From Pseudooceanicola nitratireducens (GTDB lineage Bacteria; Pseudomonadota; Alphaproteobacteria; Rhodobacterales; Rhodobacteraceae): a stretch of 64,000 nucleotides of DNA. Location of the stretch: assembly GCF_900109195.1 (NCBI RefSeq), contig NZ_FNZG01000002.1:70355-134354 (forward strand), in the 5' to 3' direction. Both the position numbers and the translations under genes were made by a program. The notes below the pieces were generated by a model, which saw nothing but the letters and a program-made list of their open reading frames with translations, did not search any database and was not told where the DNA came from. Shown piece after piece: positions 15,161-23,244 of the stretch (within the stretch, counting starts at the first letter, position 1; each line of letters starts with the position of its first letter).

Positions 15161-16693
15161 ATGCGCGGACCTCACAATCTTTGGCGGTTGATCCGCACCG
15201 GGGCCACGCTGGAACGCACCGGCGCGATGAAGGTCGTGCTGGACGCCTATGACGCGCCGCCGCTTTTGCGGATGGCCGCGCGGGTGGCCGGCTGGCCGTT
15301 CCAGTGGCTGGGGTTGAAGGGCGATCCGTCGATGCCCCCCGCCACGCGGGCGCTGACCGCGCTTGGGCCGGCCTATATCAAGTTCGGCCAGATCCTGTCG
15401 ACGCGGCCCGACCTTGTGGGCGATGACCTGGCGCTGCAGTTGCGGGTTCTGCAGGACCGTCTGCCCCCGTTTTCCGTCGAACAGGCCAAGGCCACGGTCG
15501 AGGCTGAACTGGACCTTCCTGTCAGTTCTGTCTTTTCTGAATTCTCCGAACCCGTTGCCGCCGCGTCAATTGCGCAGGTGCACCGCGCCCGCCTGAACGA
15601 AACCGGCGAAGAGGTCGCCGTGAAAGTCCTGCGCCCGGGGATCGACCGGGCCTTCCGCAAGGATATCGACGCCTTCTACCTGGCGGCCTCGATCATCGAA
15701 TTCCTGTCGCCCGCATCGCGCCGCTTGCGCCCCTCGGACGTGGTGGCGCATTTCGATGGCGTCGTGCAGGGAGAGCTGGACCTGCGGCTCGAGGCCGCCT
15801 CGGCCTCGACCTTCCAGTCCAACACGGAAGGCGACGACGGCTTTGGCCTGCCTTCGGTGAAGTGGCCGCAAAGCGGTCGCCGCATCATGACGATGAGCTG
15901 GGTCGAGGGCACGCCCCTGGGCGACAATGCCGCGCTGGATGCCGCCGGGCATGACCGTTCGGATCTGGGTGCGCGGGTGCTGACGCTGTTCCTGAACCAC
16001 GCGCTGCGCGACGGCTATTTCCACGCCGACATGCATCAGGGCAACCTGAAGGTCGCGCCCGACGGTCGAATTATTGCCTATGATTTCGGGATCATGGGGC
16101 ATATCGACGAATACACCCGCCGGGTCTATGCCGAGATCCTATATGGGTTCATCAAGCGCGATTACATGCGCGTCGCCATGGTCCATTTCGAGGCCGGATA
16201 TGTCCCCGCCGATCAGGACGTTGACGAATTCGCCCGCGCCCTTCGGGCCGTGGGCGAACCGATCTTCGGCATGGATGCGACTAAGATCTCCATGGGGCGG
16301 CTGCTGTCTTATCTCTTCGATGTGACCGAACGTTTCGGCATGGAAACCCGGACCGAGCTGATCCTGCTGCAGCGCACCATGGTCGTGGTCGAAGGCGTCG
16401 CCCGGTCGCTGTCGCCGCAGCTGAACATCTGGGAAGTCGCCCGCCCCGTGGTCGAGGCCTACATCCGCCGCAACCTTGGCCCCCGCGCCTTTGCCCGCGA
16501 TCTGGGCAAAACGGCCGAGGTTCTGGCCCGCTTCGGCCCCCGCCTTCCGCACCTGGTGCAGAACGCGCTGGTACAGCAGATGACTAGCATGGAGACCAAC
16601 CGCCGCAAGGCTGAGCGTAGGCCCTATGTCTGGCTGATCTCCGGCGCGATCCTTGGTGCGGCTGTGGCTGGGGTGGCCTCGGCGCTGCTATAA
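15161..16693 (+). CDS. ubiB: UbiB, ABC1/ADCK-family ubiquinone biosynthesis protein
   Basis: A 510-residue atypical kinase-like protein needed for ubiquinone synthesis. It carries the family KxGQ motif in AYIKFGQILSTRPD, the AxxAS-type loop in PVAAASIAQVHRA, and DMHQGN / YDFG as catalytic and metal-binding loops. The C-terminus has a hydrophobic hairpin (WLISGAILGAAVAGVASALL) that anchors it. It follows ubiE by 3 bases. Its stop codon overlaps the convergent phosphotransferase gene by 6 bases, so no terminator separates the two. Confidence 0.96.
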   Translation: MRGPHNLWRLIRTGATLERTGAMKVVLDAYDAPPLLRMAARVAGWPFQWLGLKGDPSMPPATRALTALGPAYIKFGQILSTRPDLVGDDLALQLRVLQDRLPPFSVEQAKATVEAELDLPVSSVFSEFSEPVAAASIAQVHRARLNETGEEVAVKVLRPGIDRAFRKDIDAFYLAASIIEFLSPASRRLRPSDVVAHFDGVVQGELDLRLEAASASTFQSNTEGDDGFGLPSVKWPQSGRRIMTMSWVEGTPLGDNAALDAAGHDRSDLGARVLTLFLNHALRDGYFHADMHQGNLKVAPDGRIIAYDFGIMGHIDEYTRRVYAEILYGFIKRDYMRVAMVHFEAGYVPADQDVDEFARALRAVGEPIFGMDATKISMGRLLSYLFDVTERFGMETRTELILLQRTMVVVEGVARSLSPQLNIWEVARPVVEAYIRRNLGPRAFARDLGKTAEVLARFGPRLPHLVQNALVQQMTSMETNRRKAERRPYVWLISGAILGAAVAGVASALL

Positions 16694-17569
16694 TTCCGTT
16701 ATTTCTGAAATTTCCGAAAAACGCAGTTCATCTGGGACTGCGCTTTTTCCTGCGCCTCGCCCGGCCTCGGTACACCATTGTGCATAGGCCGCCATACGGG
16801 CTGCGAAGAACGGTGCCAACGTCCGATACCGCGCGACCGTTTCCGCGCAGGCATATGATTTCAGAAATTCCTGAATTTCCTGCGCAACCAAGCGCCGACC
16901 CAGGTAGGTGACCTGCATGAAGGGCGACAGAACAATCGCGATATCCTCGCACGGGTCACCCATGGCCGGGCACTGCCAATCGATCAGAACCACACCGGAT
17001 GACGACCGAACCACGTTGGTCCAGACCGGATCGCGGTGGATCAGGGCTGGCGTTTCAACCCCGTCGATCGGTGGAACGTGGCGCAGGGCCTCTATGCGTG
17101 CGGCAACGCCGTGCGGATCGTCCTGACACCGGGACAGGATTTCCGAGGCCTGTCGCAAAAGCGCCCCTGACCCGGAGGGCATCAGGCCAGGCGGGTTATC
17201 CGGCCGAAGCTGATGCACCCGACGCAGGACCTTGGCCAGATCGGTCAGCGTGACGTCCCCGGCCTGCCCGTCGACAAAGCGATAGATCAGCGCGCTGCCG
17301 AAATCGCCGTGGATATGGGCCAGAGCCTCGGGGGCCAGACCAAGCGGGCCGAGGCCCTGCAGGATCTGGTATTCGGCCGCCGGGTCGTTCGGGAACAGGG
17401 GCGTCGCCCCGCTTGGCAGGTATAGCTTGACCACAAGGTCCGCACCCCCTGTCCGCCCGCGCCAAAGCGCGTTGCTGCGCCCACCCAGCAGCTTCTCCCA
17501 TTGGGAAGGCAGCTGGCCGACGGCACGCTCGACGGCGGCGATCAAAGACTGCGGAGGCAAGGACGTCAT
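16688..17569 (-). CDS. Phosphotransferase of the APH/choline-kinase fold, substrate unknown
   Basis: A 293-residue small-molecule kinase-like protein. The nucleotide lysine is probably in ADLVVKLYLP, the catalytic loop reads HRDPVWTNVV (H-x-D-x4-N), and the metal-binding aspartate is in LIDWQCPAMGDPCEDIA. Catalytic residues are intact. The family includes aminoglycoside, choline, thiamine and homoserine kinases; nothing here decides among them. It is convergent with ubiB (6-base overlap) and lies downstream of flgD on the same strand with 63 bases between. Antibiotic resistance should not be assumed. Confidence 0.8.
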   Translation of the reverse strand: MTSLPPQSLIAAVERAVGQLPSQWEKLLGGRSNALWRGRTGGADLVVKLYLPSGATPLFPNDPAAEYQILQGLGPLGLAPEALAHIHGDFGSALIYRFVDGQAGDVTLTDLAKVLRRVHQLRPDNPPGLMPSGSGALLRQASEILSRCQDDPHGVAARIEALRHVPPIDGVETPALIHRDPVWTNVVRSSSGVVLIDWQCPAMGDPCEDIAIVLSPFMQVTYLGRRLVAQEIQEFLKSYACAETVARYRTLAPFFAARMAAYAQWCTEAGRGAGKSAVPDELRFSEISEITEL

Positions 17570-17632: not shown

Positions 17633-18286
17633 CTACTGCGCCTGTCGCAGCCCCGTCACCCCCTGGGCGTTCACGATCAGCCCGCCCTTGAGAACCAGAA
17701 GCGTGTCGTCACCATCGCGCCGCGCTTCAATCACCTGGGAATAGGACGGGACGGGTTCGGTTTTCAGAACTTCGCCCTCGGCCGAGGATTCCAGCAGGAA
17801 ACTGTATGTCCCCTGTCCTGCGGTGCCGCCGGTTGCGGTCCGCCCGTCCCACTCAAATGGGCCTTCGGTCAGGGGAAGATCCTGCCTCAGGACGACCGCC
17901 CCGGATGCGTCCTTGACCACCAGGACAGCCCGGTCCGCCGCCGCAGGAGGGTCGGGCAATAGCGTGATTGGGTCACCGTCGAAATAGGCCGCCGACAGGC
18001 TCTGCGCCTCCATCCCGACCCAGCCGGCAAGGTCGCTCATCCCGGATAGGGCGATGCGATTGGCCAAGGCTTCCAGGTGGTTGTTGGTCAGCACCTGTTG
18101 TTCGACCGAGGAAAATGTCGCCAACTGCACCGCGTAATCCGCCGAATCCACCGGGTTCAGCGGGTCCTGGTTCTGCAATTGCGTCGACAACATCTTGAGA
18201 AAGGTTTCGAAATCCGAGCTGATGACCGCCTTGGGCGCGGCCGTGCTGGCCTGAGTGCTGGTTGATGTATTGCTGGTGACTTCCAT
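17633..18286 (-). CDS. flgD: Flagellar hook capping protein FlgD
   Basis: A 217-residue hook-cap scaffold that directs FlgE polymerisation. The N-terminal FlgD signature is FLKMLSTQLQNQDPLNPVDSADY followed by VQLATFSSVEQQVLTN (about residues 28-67). The C-terminal half has the Tudor/FnIII-like pattern with FEWDGRTATGGTAGQGTYSF. Shared with fliK upstream on the same strand (12-base gap), it looks like a fliK-flgD operon. It seems intact, although the other hook and basal-body genes are absent here. Confidence 0.93.
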   Translation of the reverse strand: MEVTSNTSTSTQASTAAPKAVISSDFETFLKMLSTQLQNQDPLNPVDSADYAVQLATFSSVEQQVLTNNHLEALANRIALSGMSDLAGWVGMEAQSLSAAYFDGDPITLLPDPPAAADRAVLVVKDASGAVVLRQDLPLTEGPFEWDGRTATGGTAGQGTYSFLLESSAEGEVLKTEPVPSYSQVIEARRDGDDTLLVLKGGLIVNAQGVTGLRQAQ

Positions 18287-18298
18287 TGGGGATGCTCC

Positions 18299-20899
18299 TT
18301 ACAAGCGGATGTCGATGCCGTCGCTGGCAATCTGTTCAGGAGGCGGGGATTCGGGCATGTTCGCCAAGGATTCGGGCTGAGCCCAGGCTTGGGTCTGACC
18401 GTATTTTTGCCCTTCGGATCCACGCTGATCCCCGCCTGCGGCAAAGGAAAAGCTGATGCGGTCGTAGCCCATCTGCCGATAGTCCTGCGCCAACTGATCA
18501 ATATGCCGCCGCAAGAGATCCATGGTTTCCGGGCGATCGGCGACAATCGACAGATTGACACCATTGTCAGCCGCGATGACCTGAATGCGGACGCGGCCAA
18601 GCTCTTCCGGTTTCAACGTAATTTCGATCGGCCCTCCAGGATTCTGCTGCACGGCATCCCGAACCTGATCTAAAATCGGGTCTTTCGTCAGCGGCACCGC
18701 CTGGGTGATCGTAGGTGGAAATATTGGGGCCAACGGGCCTGAATGCAGTCCGATTTCTTTGGCTTTGACCTCGGCCAGGGCACCTTGCGAGCCCATGGAC
18801 TGTTCGGTTCCTACGGCCTCGGGGCCGGACTGAACGAACGCTGCCGCCGGCGTGTCCACCTTCGACGCCTGATCCGCATGCTTCGGTGTGACCCTTGAGA
18901 CCTGCTTGTATGCTTTGTCCAGTCGGGCAAGCGTCGGCAGCTCAGGTGTCGTTGAGTCAGCACGCGTGTGGGTGGTTGTAGTTTCCGACCTTGCTAGGGT
19001 TCTGACCGCCTTCGGCACCATAGGACGTGAACCAACTTCATTTTCGGAAAGAGCAGCTTGAGGCACAAAGTGGTCCTTGGCCGGCAACCGCTTGTCTTGT
19101 GTTTCCGATGATCGGTTCGGAACTTCTGCCTGGCCTATTGTCGTAGAAGTCTTACCTGCAATAGCCTCCGTTTGATGAGCGACGGGGCGATCATCCTGAT
19201 GTGCTCTTGTGGCCTCTGCCGGCGGTTTCGAGCGCGCTTCAAGGTCCCGCGTGCTGGAAACAGCTACCGTAACACGCCGAAGAGGCGCGCTCTTTTCCAG
19301 CACTTTACCTTCAATTCCAAGCCCCGGAAGGTCTGTCGGTTTTGTGCCGTCAATAGTTGGCGGACTGGCCTCCGGACGGTTTTCAAGATCTTCAGAAACG
19401 GGTCCTGATACCAGCATTGAGCGGATCGGCATACCGGGATTTATGACCTTGGTGTCGACCGCAGGGGCCGGCCCAACTTTTGGCAACGTTTCCTTTTCAG
19501 AATTCGAAGTGCCACTGCGGACAAATTCCATCTGCGAACCGATCTGGTTCTTCTTGGCCGTCACCGAAGCTTCGTCGGTTGGCAGCTGAACCGCGGCAAA
19601 ACCGGTCTTTTGCCTAGCGACGGGAATGGCCGCCCCATCGCGGCGGCCAGTGTCGACCGAAGCCCTCTGTTCGATTACTAGCCTATTAACAGACGAGCGA
19701 GACCCTAGTGTTTTTGGTACGATAGAACCTTCCGTTTGGAGCTTCCGTATTTCCGGTTCATCTGTGCCTCTTGTCGAATAATCAGACTGATTTGATTGCG
19801 AAAATTTGCTTCTTGAAGATGCAGTTGGAGCAGCTTTGAAAGCGACGCTCAGATGGATCTTGGCTGCTTTGCTTTCATTTACTTGTCCTGCATTGCGCCC
19901 CATTAGTTCTGGATGAACCGGTCTCGGTTCAGGTGAGCCCTGATTCCTAGCGCCATGTTGTTGGGGTTGTTGGATTTTCCCGTGCCAAGAAGCAGGTGCA
20001 TCTTGCGTTGCAAGGCCACCGACTCGAGGTTCAATTTGCACATCGCCAACCTTATCCGTCGCGGGCGTGGCATTTGCTTTTCCGATTTCAGGAATGGCTT
20101 CGGATGCGGGGGCTTTTCGCTGCTCATGACCTTTCGGAACTGCTCCATTGGCCGCTGGTTTTGGCGATGTTTGGTTGATCCAGTGCGCCGCTTGGGGCTT
20201 CTCGGTTGATTCTCCCAGCGCCTTCGAGCCTTTGGCCGGGCGATCGGTTTCATCTACCGGGAATATATTTGACTTAGAATCCGCGACGCGGCCTGCAATC
20301 GGTGTCGCCAGCATTTCTGTTGTTGGAGTCTGCACCGGCCCAAACGATGAGTTTTGCTTGCCATGATGCGCCGAAAAGTCGGAAATTCTACTTGCGCCTG
20401 CCGAATTTCGCGCCTCGCTTCGCGTGTTGGGCGTAGGCGCGTTGATTGAAAAGCCAACAGCAGGCGGGCGCTCCTTAACTGCGTTTTCCTGTTCCGTGAA
20501 CCCGGGCGGCACGGACGGCCGCGTAGGGTCTCGCATGTGTTCCTTGTGATCCTCCACCAAGTGAAAACTCCGCGTGTCGGACTGCGAGGTTGCAACACTT
20601 GGGAATGGGTATTTGAAGACTTCGGCTTCCAACCCTTCCGACACTTCTGTGGCACTGGCATCCGGCGACCAAGCTGCCAACTCAGTTGGAAAACCCTCGT
20701 CCAAGGACAACTCTGGATTTTGATCAGACGTCGGATCAGCCAAGACGAGAAGGTCGTCGGGAGCGTCAGCCACGACAGCCATTTCTGATGTCATGTCCCG
20801 GTCGAAAACCTCTGCAAACGCAACGTGTTCGCCCCCTTTTGACAAAGGGACTTCTGGCGCTCTTGCAATCCGCATCAGGGACAGAAGATCAATTTTCAT
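18299..20899 (-). CDS. fliK: Flagellar hook-length control protein FliK
   Basis: An 866-residue, long low-complexity protein (Ser/Thr/Pro/Lys-rich, roughly residues 1-720, probably disordered) with a conserved C-terminal domain containing IEITLKPEELGRVRIQVIA and LLRRHIDQLAQDYRQMGYD. FliK measures hook length and switches the export gate. I start it at ATG 20899, which has GAGG 6 bases upstream; a GTG-started extension adds 11 residues. Its base composition is visibly less GC-rich than its neighbours, which is usual for FliK linkers. It is divergent from the FlgJ-like gene. Confidence 0.9.
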   Translation of the reverse strand: MKIDLLSLMRIARAPEVPLSKGGEHVAFAEVFDRDMTSEMAVVADAPDDLLVLADPTSDQNPELSLDEGFPTELAAWSPDASATEVSEGLEAEVFKYPFPSVATSQSDTRSFHLVEDHKEHMRDPTRPSVPPGFTEQENAVKERPPAVGFSINAPTPNTRSEARNSAGASRISDFSAHHGKQNSSFGPVQTPTTEMLATPIAGRVADSKSNIFPVDETDRPAKGSKALGESTEKPQAAHWINQTSPKPAANGAVPKGHEQRKAPASEAIPEIGKANATPATDKVGDVQIEPRVGGLATQDAPASWHGKIQQPQQHGARNQGSPEPRPVHPELMGRNAGQVNESKAAKIHLSVAFKAAPTASSRSKFSQSNQSDYSTRGTDEPEIRKLQTEGSIVPKTLGSRSSVNRLVIEQRASVDTGRRDGAAIPVARQKTGFAAVQLPTDEASVTAKKNQIGSQMEFVRSGTSNSEKETLPKVGPAPAVDTKVINPGMPIRSMLVSGPVSEDLENRPEASPPTIDGTKPTDLPGLGIEGKVLEKSAPLRRVTVAVSSTRDLEARSKPPAEATRAHQDDRPVAHQTEAIAGKTSTTIGQAEVPNRSSETQDKRLPAKDHFVPQAALSENEVGSRPMVPKAVRTLARSETTTTHTRADSTTPELPTLARLDKAYKQVSRVTPKHADQASKVDTPAAAFVQSGPEAVGTEQSMGSQGALAEVKAKEIGLHSGPLAPIFPPTITQAVPLTKDPILDQVRDAVQQNPGGPIEITLKPEELGRVRIQVIAADNGVNLSIVADRPETMDLLRRHIDQLAQDYRQMGYDRISFSFAAGGDQRGSEGQKYGQTQAWAQPESLANMPESPPPEQIASDGIDIRL

Positions 20900-21009
20900 A
20901 TTGGCCTCGGGAATTCTTCCGCTCACGGCCACTGTCTCAGATCCCGGTTACTGATCCTTTACCGCTCTCAGGCAAAATCGAGCAATCTGATGACAATTGG
21001 AGGTATCTG

Positions 21010-21285
21010 ATGTTTGTCGATTCGAACCGGCCTACCGCTGTGCCACAGGGTCCCAAGGACGCGCAGTTGCGTGACGCCGCCGTGGCGTTGGAGGCGTCCT
21101 TCTTATCTGAAATGTTGAAACATTCCGGCTTGGATGGGTTGTCCGGATCGTTCGGGGGAAGCACGGGAGAAACCCAATTCGCATCCCTCTTGCGAGACGA
21201 ACAGGCGCACCAGATGGCCAAAGCCGGGGGAATCGGCCTGGCGGAAAAACTATTTCAAGCGTTGAAGGAGCAACAGGATGGCTGA
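21010..21285 (+). CDS. Rod-binding (FlgJ N-terminal domain-like) protein
   Basis: A 91-residue protein with the FlgJ rod-scaffold pattern: LRDAAVALEASFLSEMLKHS, then FGGSTGETQFASLLRDEQA and IGLAEKLFQAL. Alphaproteobacteria often encode only this domain, without the muramidase half of FlgJ. The ATG at 21010 has GGAGG about 7 bases upstream. It overlaps the next gene by 8 bases, indicating coupling. It caps the growing rod in the periplasm. Confidence 0.85.
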   Translation: MFVDSNRPTAVPQGPKDAQLRDAAVALEASFLSEMLKHSGLDGLSGSFGGSTGETQFASLLRDEQAHQMAKAGGIGLAEKLFQALKEQQDG

Positions 21286-21640
21286 GCCTATGTCCGAAAC
21301 CGAGGCCGTCGCGCGTCTTGATGACCTGCTGGATCGGGAACGCCTTGCGCTGATCCAAGGCGACCTGAGCGTGATCGCAACCATCCTGGAAGAGAAGGAA
21401 GCGTTGTTGGAGCGCCTTCCAGAACTTGACGGTCCTGCGCGTGGCAATCTGGCCAGCCTGCAGGGCAAAGCGCTGCGAAACCAGGCGCTCCTGGACAGCG
21501 CCCTGCGGGGCATCCGATCCGTCGCCAACCGTTTCGCGACCCTGCGGAGAATTCGCAAATCGTTGGAAACATATGATGAGTTTGGCCAAAAAACCGCTTT
21601 TCCAGCCAGCGAAAATAATCAGGTTGAAAAGCGCGCCTAG
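21278..21640 (+). CDS. FlgN-like flagellar protein
   Basis: A 120-residue, mostly helical protein with a pattern of heptads (ARLDDLLDRERLALIQGDLS, then ATILEEKEALLERL) resembling FlgN, the export chaperone for hook-filament junction proteins. Similarity is structural rather than by strong motif. It overlaps the FlgJ-like gene by 8 bases. FlgK and FlgL, the normal clients, are not in the window. The downstream side runs into the motB remnant. Confidence 0.68.
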   Translation: MAEPMSETEAVARLDDLLDRERLALIQGDLSVIATILEEKEALLERLPELDGPARGNLASLQGKALRNQALLDSALRGIRSVANRFATLRRIRKSLETYDEFGQKTAFPASENNQVEKRA

Positions 21641-21834
21641 ACCGAATGATTCAAATCGGAGGGAAATGGAGGGGGCGTCTTAGGTTTCCGTTAGGGTCTG
21701 TTCGTCACAGTGCCCGGGCATCCCCATCGGATGGCGCGGCACCGGGAAAGACCCGGTTCCAGCACAAGTCAGAACGACGATAGATCCGCCCCGACGGGGG
21801 GCGGGATGTGCAACGGGTGCAAAAGCATCCAAGA
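21641..21834. other. Junction segment between flgN-like gene and motB stub
   Basis: About 194 bases with no recognisable gene. Hairpins occur at 21741-21757 (ACCGGG/CCCGGT) and about 21786-21804 (CCGCCCC/GGGGCGG), neither with a U-run. This segment is where the rest of a flagellar operon would be expected if the motB stub marks a deletion. Confidence 0.5.
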
Positions 21835-21945
21835 TCAAAGGAACCTATGCATGGCCACCTTCCAGGCTCCGCCGTGGTGACCATCACCGCCGACGACCTT
21901 CTTCCGTTTGATGATGACCGGCGCCGCGTTTGCCTGCGCGCTCAT
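21835..21945 (-). pseudogene. motB: motB remnant: first 31 codons of a flagellar motor stator gene
   Basis: From ATG 21945 the minus strand reads MSAQANAAPVIIKRKK then VVGGDGHHGGAWKVA, the conserved cytoplasmic N-terminus of alphaproteobacterial MotB. In intact MotB this continues YADFVTAMMAFFLLMW, the proton-channel membrane helix. Here it changes to MHRFL and stops at 21835. The similarity ends after GTGGCC at 21853. The membrane helix, its essential aspartate and the peptidoglycan-binding domain are all absent, so no working stator can be made. A CtrA-like site lies upstream at 21989-22003. I infer the head of a former motB operon cut by a deletion. Confidence 0.82.
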
Positions 21946-21988
21946 CCACTCACCCTTTCTCACCCGCTACCGGGATAGGCGGGGAGTG

Positions 21989-22003
21989 TTAGCAGGGGGT
22001 TAA
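21989..22003 (-). promoter_or_regulatory. CtrA-like binding site upstream of motB stub
   Basis: TTAG-CAGGGGG-TTAA (plus strand) reads TTAA-N7-CTAA on the minus strand, one mismatch from the CtrA consensus TTAA-N7-TTAA. CtrA controls flagellar genes in many alphaproteobacteria. The position 44 bases upstream of the motB ATG fits. Confidence 0.45.
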
Positions 22004-22044
22004 ATTGCGCGCAGGCGAGGCCCGGGAAACGGGGCGGGATTGTC

Positions 22045-23067
22045 TTAAAGTCGATAGACCCGCGCCGCCGTGTCGTGGAACAGGCTGGCCTTTTCCGCAT
22101 CGCTCGCCCCTGCGGCGATCCGTTTGAAGGCGTTCCAGACCACGGGGTAGGACACCGCGCCTTTGTCCACCGGGAAGTTGCTTTCGAACATGCAGCGGTC
22201 TGCGCCGAACAGTTCGATCGCGGTTTCGATATAGGGCCGCCACAGCCGCGCGCATTCGCCAGAGGATGGCGGCAGTGGCTCAAGATGCAGGTCAAAGCCG
22301 TTCACATCCATGGCCAGCCCGCCCAGCTTGATGATGACATTGGGACAGCCCGCCAGGTCCTGCATGTAGCCCTTCCATTCGGCAAAGACTTCGTCGCCCT
22401 TGCCGCGATAGGGGCCGATGCCCAGGGGGCCACCCAGGTGATCCAGGATCATCGTGGTGTCCGGGAAGGCACGCGCCAGGTCGGTGAAATCCGGGATCTG
22501 CGGATGGTACAGCCAGGCATCATAGGTCAGCCCGTTGGCCGCCAGATGGCCAAAGCCCTTGCGGAAGGCGTCGTCGTACATCAGCCGCAGCGGAGAATTC
22601 GGAACCGCGCCGGAAAACCGGTCCCCGCCCGAGGCGGTGTAATGCCGGATCCCGCGCAGCCGCCCCTTCGCGGCCTCTTTGTGGGCGTCCAGCACGGGCT
22701 GCACCGCGTCGCCCAGCAGCAGGTTGGCATGGGCGACGATGCCGTCGCAGGCCCCGATGTCGGATCGTTTGCGGGCGCATTCCTCGGCGATGCCCACGAC
22801 GAACTCCGTCTCTCCCACGGGTTTCAGATCGGTCGGCCCCTCTTCGCGATAGCCATAGCGGCACTGGATGAAGACCGTCTTGCGGATGTTGTGGCCCGAG
22901 GTCAGATCGGCCAGCAGCTCATCCGCGAAATAGGGGCCAAGCCGGTCCCAAAGGTGATGATGCGGGTCGATGATGGGCAGCTCGGGTTCCAGGATCTCCT
23001 CGCTCGCCTTTGCCAGCCAGTCGTCTCGCGTCAGGATATGGGTCGTCGCTTCGTAATCTTGCGTCAT
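22045..23067 (-). CDS. Amidohydrolase-2 family metal-dependent hydrolase
   Basis: A 340-residue TIM-barrel hydrolase. The metal site motif is IIDPHHHLWDRLG near residue 32, with a later ILDHLGGP and a C-terminal MFESNFPVDKGAVSYPVVW, whose aspartate is typically catalytic. The family includes sugar lactonases (fucono- and rhamnonolactonase) and 2-pyrone-4,6-dicarboxylate hydrolase; the pattern DPHHHLWD is common to both. The ATG at 23067 has GGAGG 6 bases upstream. It is a lone gene on this strand; an inverted repeat at 23118-23136 may be its operator. Confidence 0.87.
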   Translation of the reverse strand: MTQDYEATTHILTRDDWLAKASEEILEPELPIIDPHHHLWDRLGPYFADELLADLTSGHNIRKTVFIQCRYGYREEGPTDLKPVGETEFVVGIAEECARKRSDIGACDGIVAHANLLLGDAVQPVLDAHKEAAKGRLRGIRHYTASGGDRFSGAVPNSPLRLMYDDAFRKGFGHLAANGLTYDAWLYHPQIPDFTDLARAFPDTTMILDHLGGPLGIGPYRGKGDEVFAEWKGYMQDLAGCPNVIIKLGGLAMDVNGFDLHLEPLPPSSGECARLWRPYIETAIELFGADRCMFESNFPVDKGAVSYPVVWNAFKRIAAGASDAEKASLFHDTAARVYRL

Positions 23068-23117
23068 GTTGGTCCTCCCTTCCGGGAAGATACGACAAAG
23101 CGTCATCAGTGGAAGAA

Positions 23118-23136
23118 AATTCCTGCATGCGGAATT
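23118..23136. promoter_or_regulatory. Inverted repeat upstream of the amidohydrolase gene
   Basis: AATTCC-TGCATGC-GGAATT is a perfect palindrome of 6-bp arms with a central GCATGC, 50 bases upstream of the ATG. No cognate regulator lies next to it. Confidence 0.4.
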
Positions 23137-23244
23137 GAATGCGCCGGGTTTGTGTAAAATTCCGAGTATCTCGGGCCGGGAAACCCGGGCCAGCGTGCGG
23201 TGCGATTACCGATCCTTAAGCAGCGCGGCCCTAGGGTCGCGCGC

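Follow-up and report, generated by a model that had tools for sequence, protein, structure and literature searches.

We analysed a window of 64,000 nucleotides (nt) from Pseudooceanicola nitratireducens (contig NZ_FNZG01000002.1, positions 70,355 to 134,354 of the forward strand) and found in it a deleted form of fla1, the archetypal flagellar gene cluster of the Rhodobacterales. The cluster has been lost from the start codon of the flagellin gene fliC to codon 31 of motB. A flgD-fliK-flgJ-flgN block, the fliC leader and the head of motB, which is preceded by a CtrA-like box, remain; we call the truncated motB frame the stub. What looks like the same scar, to the base, is present in dozens of related species, and a random accident would not give such a pattern. 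We propose that the scar is a single deletion allele of old date, which homologous recombination has either preserved or exchanged, and we put the probability of this reading at roughly 0.42.

The deletion was recognized by alignment with G013, a congener with intact fla1; here 'intact' and 'kin with fla1' mean that an intact fla1-type motB head was matched, and both are known from genes alone. Window positions 20879-21845 align with C2:110884-111840 of G013 and positions 21849-23139 with C2:140470-141756. In G013 these two ends stand 28.6 kilobases (kb) apart, and the interval runs from the flagellin gene (MSSILTNN...) to motB and contains FlhA, so that the polarity of the deletion is clear. 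The layout is the same in a second congener, G003, where about 32 kb separate the two ends. Seven congeners keep both fliC and motB, and flagellin directly follows flgN in all of them; compared with their fliC start, the junction consists of the fliC leader and the AT of its start codon joined to motB codon 31. Among 14 stretches fetched from other genera, flagellin directly follows flgN in seven, an eighth (G300) has flagellin and an unmatched FlgN, and the block falls outside the other six. A sequence-only reading of the window had attributed the locus to a large deletion, which would have placed the head of a motB-led operon and its CtrA-like site next to sequence beside flgN, and had asked whether relatives have a full cluster between motB and flgN. 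The G013 alignment supports the deletion and shows fla1 genes between the two ends. The flgN side was also named correctly, but the joined sequence is more exactly the fliC leader, ending inside its start codon. The features of the locus are:

17633..18286, minus strand: flgD of the fla1 type, intact, 217 amino acids (Pfam FlgD, 2.1e-18)
18299..20899, minus strand: fliK, intact (Pfam Flg_hook, the FliK C-terminal domain, 5.9e-15)
21010..21285, plus strand: gene for a flgJ-like rod-binding protein, 91 amino acids (Pfam Rod-binding, 1.2e-8)
21278..21640, plus strand: flgN, 120 amino acids (Pfam FlgN, 3.1e-6; 28.1 bits, just below the gathering score of 30.5)
21641..21852, plus strand: orphan fliC (flagellin) leader without fliC (alignment with G013 and comparison with the seven fliC-keeping congeners)
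21815..21830, plus strand: leader hairpin GGGTGC-AAAA-GCATCC (read from the sequence)
21837..21843, plus strand: former fliC ribosome-binding site AAAGGAA (sequence, with comparison of congeners and stubs)
21852..21853, no strand: deletion junction between the AT of the fliC start codon and motB codon 31 (congener and stub alignments)
21835..21945, minus strand: motB head, 31 motB codons, five further codons and a stop (translation and MotB comparison)
21989..22003, minus strand: CtrA-like box TTAA-CCCCCTG-CTAA (TTAA-N7-CTAA), upstream of the stub (motif scan)
22045..23106, minus strand: amidohydrolase gene beyond the stub (Pfam PF04909)

From its ATG at 21945 on the minus strand, the stub is translated as MSAQANAAPVIIKRKKVVGGDGHHGGAWKVA, followed by MHRFL and a stop codon at 21835. 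The MotB reading thus spans 21945 to 21853, and translation and comparison with MotB bear out the earlier description of 31 MotB residues followed by five others. The MotB heads of intact G013 and G005 match the stub at 86% over 36 residues; the stub alone matched no Pfam model at 1e-3. The transmembrane helix and plug that follow the cytoplasmic head of MotB are absent, as the frame leaves MotB after codon 31. Judged from its sequence, the stub is not a stator protein. On the other side of the junction, the orphan leader terminates in the AT of the former fliC start codon, and flgD, fliK, flgJ and flgN stand in fla1 order beside it. Pfam confirmed these four genes, FlgN falling just under the cut-off. 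FlgD and FlgN are 72% and 65% identical to their G013 counterparts, and the G013 FlgN directly precedes the flagellin gene. The listed frame of fliK extends to 20932 from a GTG, and the ATG at 20899 is the likely start. The amidohydrolase neighbour also adjoins intact motB in G005, G008, G013 and G014. At window 16688-17569, between ubiB and flgD, lies a gene with a Pfam APH (phosphotransferase) domain, which several, not all, relatives retain at this place.

The stub is not private to this species. In a set of 22 genomes of the genus, two other species (G016 and G011) carry the same stub and the same junction. Among 394 genomes of the family, from which 17 weak matches were re-searched, we found it in 13 other genera, and each of these stubs ends in ...GGAWKVA followed by AT and a stretch resembling the fliC leader. 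All 16 stubs that were detected without prescribing the junction (the window, G016, G011 and the 13 genera) therefore share the same one. A stub-specific DNA pattern gave 93 matches in 84,980 species genomes: 81 Rhodobacterales stubs, and 12 MotB frames of other bacteria that continue as MADF... and were dropped. Codons 23-31 and the AT are specified by the pattern itself, and the 81 records are therefore conditioned at these positions. Most stub statistics below use the 70 stubs among the first 80 matches (L185-L264), the other 11 stubs being excluded. The 70 include members of 28 named genera (47 Roseobacteraceae, 20 Paracoccaceae and three unplaced); one record, L196, ends at a contig edge, where only the last 12 codons are visible. 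Four genomes of the family set (G027, G158, G292 and G328), which have the stub beside a fla2-like match, are, judged by their coordinates, the same as four found by the pattern. When the window is counted with the 70, 64 of the 71 have the leader motif GTCAGAA at most 110 nt from the joint, and 46 have a strict ribosome-binding site. Two of the 71 heads contain a stop within the fixed 31-codon frame; these are seemingly L239 and L240, whose frames begin at an ATG further on. A short plus-strand open reading frame from the old fliC start was considered and rejected, since no more than 45 of the 71 have an ATG at the junction.

The sequence-only reading took the locus for a relic private to a lineage losing motility. 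This part did not stand, as the stub is conserved as such in many species (81 other Rhodobacterales records from at least 28 named genera). It had also raised an assembly collapse. Here the same junction in two other species of the genus and 13 other genera, together with the pattern records, led us to reject chance and misassembly alike. An ordinary one-off deletion would suit the clear polarity seen in G013, but 81 other stubs and 15 other unconditioned joints indicate that the scar is neither private nor an assembly fault; we consider a one-off relic or a collapsed assembly very improbable. The earlier observation is thus confirmed and its interpretation partly supported: the deletion is real, and it exemplifies a scar that occurs across the order. 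We likewise rejected the idea that phages or plasmids spread it. Viral contigs gave no match to the pattern, phages gave no stub match, and plasmids gave only MotB matches covering at least 88% of a 64-residue head.

The stub and an intact motB of the fla1 type are mutually exclusive. Such an intact gene is absent from all 50 stub genomes compared (second full matches, in nine genomes, are only 55-67% identical), and none of ten intact genomes with two MotB matches has the stub. FlhA is absent from 49 of 63 other stub genomes, that is, from 12 of 13 in the family set and 37 of 50 in the non-overlapping pattern set. The 50 include metagenome-assembled genomes (MAGs) whose completeness was not given; in the set of 13, FlhA is found in none of the ten genomes that are at least 90% complete. 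Within the genus, fla2-like FlhA scores 811-825 bits and fla1-type FlhA 709-729 bits. Twelve of the 13 FlhA matches in the 50-genome set score 786-825 bits, near the fla2-like range. Two stub genomes have a match in the fla1 range instead: Rubellimicrobium roseum, with 713 bits, and the 62% complete MAG G232, with 712 bits. In R. roseum (L206), part of fla1, from a fliP-like and fliF-like gene to flhB and including FlhA (the other names assigned by reading), lies at G431:C55, about 19.7-32.7 kb, on a different contig from the stub. As the stub junction is present there all the same, it appears that the ends, and not the span, fix the junction.

The window genome (G000) contains a single full MotB and a single FlhA. 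Both are on the 146-kb contig C15 and are of another type by score or identity, and so relocation of the fla1 block within this genome was rejected. C15 also holds its own FlgD and a FlgN-like protein that, at 30.4 bits, just misses the cut-off of 30.5; by eye, at least one of its genes is flagellin-like. The alternative offered in the sequence-only reading, a second flagellar cluster elsewhere, therefore proved correct; it is located at G000:C15:90001-146222, on a contig of plasmid size. By analogy, its contig size, its FlhA score group and a MotB identity distinct from fla1 would make this cluster fla2-like, and the motility of the window genome, if any, would come from it. G016 likewise has a fla2-like system, and G011 is without FlhA and without full MotB.

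The genus also shows other forms of fla1 loss and rearrangement. In G012 (L156, C5:160001-180000) the flagellin start and a full motB remain about 2.3 kb apart; its only FlhA is in the fla2-like score group, and its sister G003 has intact fla1 FlhA and motB. In G006 (L150) and G020 (L152), which belong to two separate groups of the genus, the APH gene is about 0.2-0.4 kb from the amidohydrolase gene and the flgD-to-stub block is gone; no flg genes were matched between the two. G005, G008 and G014 have motB and its amidohydrolase neighbour far from flgD or on another contig, with fla1 FlhA present and no stub.

The distribution of the stub does not follow one clade. In a tree of ubiE and ubiB, G000 groups with the intact G013, G005 and G008 (100/100), and G016 and G011 fall in a separate group with the intact G014 (94/91); a single ancestral deletion in one clade was thus rejected within the genus. 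A UbiB tree of 73 rows (24 stub, 44 intact and five other) requires 11 changes of the stub state, eight of them forced by well-supported branches. This tree holds only rows with enough UbiB, 30 of its intact rows were chosen for high motB similarity, and G012 was not counted as intact. In a FlgD+FlgJ+FlgN tree of 75 rows (59 stub and 16 intact, including G012), stubs are mixed with intact kin and nine changes are needed, six of them forced; the window groups with G013, G005 and G008 and not with other stubs. Additionally, stubs share the gene beyond them with intact kin in at least four lineages, and 46 of 124 neighbours are unshared. One neighbour group of eight stubs from several genera has no intact member and would also fit a shared stub allele. 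Flanks on both sides therefore tend to be lineage-specific while the joint is identical. This leaves either one old event with homogenized flanks or a mechanism that repeats the same cut.

A repeated cut would mean site-specific excision, in which an enzyme or a DNA structure repeatedly removed the fla1 block at one and the same base, so that the individual scars would be rather young. The number of changes on both trees, the lineage-specific flanks and the R. roseum junction agree with this, but in none of the seven congeners that keep fliC and motB did we see the two ends share a core sequence or carry a direct repeat (ungapped comparison, 40 nt on each side, offsets -12 to 12; G012, which has lost most of fla1, was counted among the intact rows). 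Identity at the junction register is 0.343, against 0.357 and 0.364 at two other registers, and repeat-mediated deletion was rejected because the first value does not exceed the others. Without a shared repeat at the ends, identical independent breaks seem unlikely. Moreover, no recombinase is known for this junction, though no recombinase search was made, and the genus has lost fla1 in other ways too (G012; G006 and G020). Recurrent excision is possible, and it comes close behind the reading that we favour. We lean slightly towards an old allele because identical breaks without homology would need dedicated machinery, and to our knowledge there is no case of such machinery.

If one old deletion is the source, the breakpoint would have arisen once, long ago. 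Since then the short allele would have persisted alongside the long one, or passed from one related population to another, through homologous recombination in the arms that the two share, which are flgJ-flgN-leader on one side and the motB head on the other. Recombination in these arms would leave the short allele with flanks like those of kin with intact fla1. Recombination with intact kin, or some remaining use of the MotB head and FlgJ, may have preserved the frame of the stub, its CtrA box, the hairpin in the leader and the neighbouring genes. In favour of such an allele we count the repeat-free ends, the single junction of the 16 unconditioned stubs, the mutual exclusion of stub and intact fla1-type motB, the neighbour gene shared with intact kin, the place of the window in the FlgD+FlgJ+FlgN tree, and the codon-level selection and preserved CtrA box described below. 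The 93-nt heads give no clear separation of stub from intact alleles: the nearest neighbour by identity has the same label in 88 of 124, and the nearest head to that of the window is an intact one from another genus (G103). Some observations weigh against an old shared allele. By eye, the leader of the window still looks local up to about 40-60 nt before the joint, and a transfer from one genus to another would thus require crossing over almost at the joint itself. Both alleles were not seen in one species, in collections with one genome per species. Last, in the sections covered, Tomasch et al. (2025; PMC12363192) call fla1 loss sporadic and independent.

The remnant itself bears on a further explanation, that the MotB head of 31 residues forms, together with FlgJ, FlgN and the leader, a working module that serves a non-flagellar task and is kept by selection. 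Stub codons 9-21, which lie outside the search pattern, are under purifying selection: 11 disjoint stub pairs gave 39.5 synonymous against 14.5 nonsynonymous changes (p = 4e-14 in a simple site-count test with an expected nonsynonymous share of 0.751), and seven intact pairs gave 18.5 and 10.5. Selection after the deletion follows from this only if each pair inherited one deletion, as recombinational refreshing or recent loss would look alike. The stub frames are open in the records read. The CtrA box (at most one mismatch) is present in 47 of 69 stubs, in 36 of 53 intact motB genes and in about 2.5% of single-base shuffles, and 61 of 70 stub leaders can form a stem of at least 5 base pairs, compared with 24% of shuffles; these stems are of 35 different kinds. 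The stem sequences around the A-rich loop of this fliC-leader hairpin vary among species though no fliC follows, and the hairpin is possibly a regulator-binding site.

The genes beside the stub are mostly intact: across 26 loci, the intactness rule was passed by FlgJ in 26, FlgD in 25, FlgN in 23 and FliK in 20. The fliK gene is short in L233 and L236, and both flgD and fliK are broken in L239, a MAG, which speaks against their being essential; the stub of L239 is whole. Median rate ratios to UbiB in stub and intact pairs were 2.93 and 2.44 for FlgD, 4.32 and 3.02 for FlgN, and 1.97 and 2.34 for FlgJ; the intact pairs come nearly all from one genus and G012 was counted as intact. Relative to UbiB, FlgJ is thus no faster in stub pairs, and FlgD and FlgN are somewhat faster. 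Mostly intact genes and an unaccelerated FlgJ are what fairly young, repeated excisions would leave. A retained module would account for the selected codons, the open frames, the preserved box and hairpin, the whole stub of L239 and the many stub genomes without FlhA. It fits less well with G006 and G020 of the same genus, which dropped the locus, with the faster FlgD and FlgN, or with tails that vary freely after codon 31 (25 of 70 end within 7 codons). Alone it also leaves the identical junction unexplained, and recent loss would look alike. We therefore think that selection for such a module is an unlikely explanation. We also regard as doubtful a combined model in which ancestral fla1 was excised with nucleotide precision and without repeats in at least eight lineages and the CtrA-controlled MotB head was kept as a working small protein.

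Motility loss is usually seen as many unrelated accidents. If a base-exact scar is shared across an order, then either long and short alleles have coexisted for a very long time, with recombination maintaining the polymorphism, or there is an excision route not known so far. The stub junction is also an exact molecular tag for fla1 loss in the Rhodobacterales, and it draws attention to flagellar remnants that may still be under selection.

The heterocyst nif elements and the sigK skin element are excised site-specifically, through direct repeats and a recombinase that they encode. Our locus resembles them in that a large block leaves a precise joint, but differs in that no repeat was seen (for a recombinase, as said, no search was made). 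Compared with full-length MotB (Pfam MotB_plug), the first 31 residues of the stub align with MotB heads, and the stub stops before the channel helix. We found no description of the stub or of a shared breakpoint among open-licence PubMed Central papers. The sections covered of other work describe further Rhodobacterales flagellar clusters (PMC3646047 and PMC4149021) and strain-specific motility via a fla2 chromid in Marinovum sedimenti, with Roseivivax marinus mentioned as an earlier case (PMC12843797). The closest survey, that of Tomasch et al., describes in the sections covered the same cluster and gene order as here, with motB at one end of fla1 and fliC, flgN, fliK and flgD at the other. 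There, fla1 is archetypal and vertically inherited, losses are scattered (51 of 306 taxa are without any flagellar cluster) and fla2 is often on plasmids. Those sections mention no breakpoint, stub or retained flgD-fliK-flgJ-flgN block, whereas we find a breakpoint that looks base-identical in many genera. Similarly, in the part covered of a study of convergent deletion in unrelated strains (PMC5951980), the same genes are lost repeatedly; in the Rhodobacterales, it is the junction itself that falls at the same base in distant genera.

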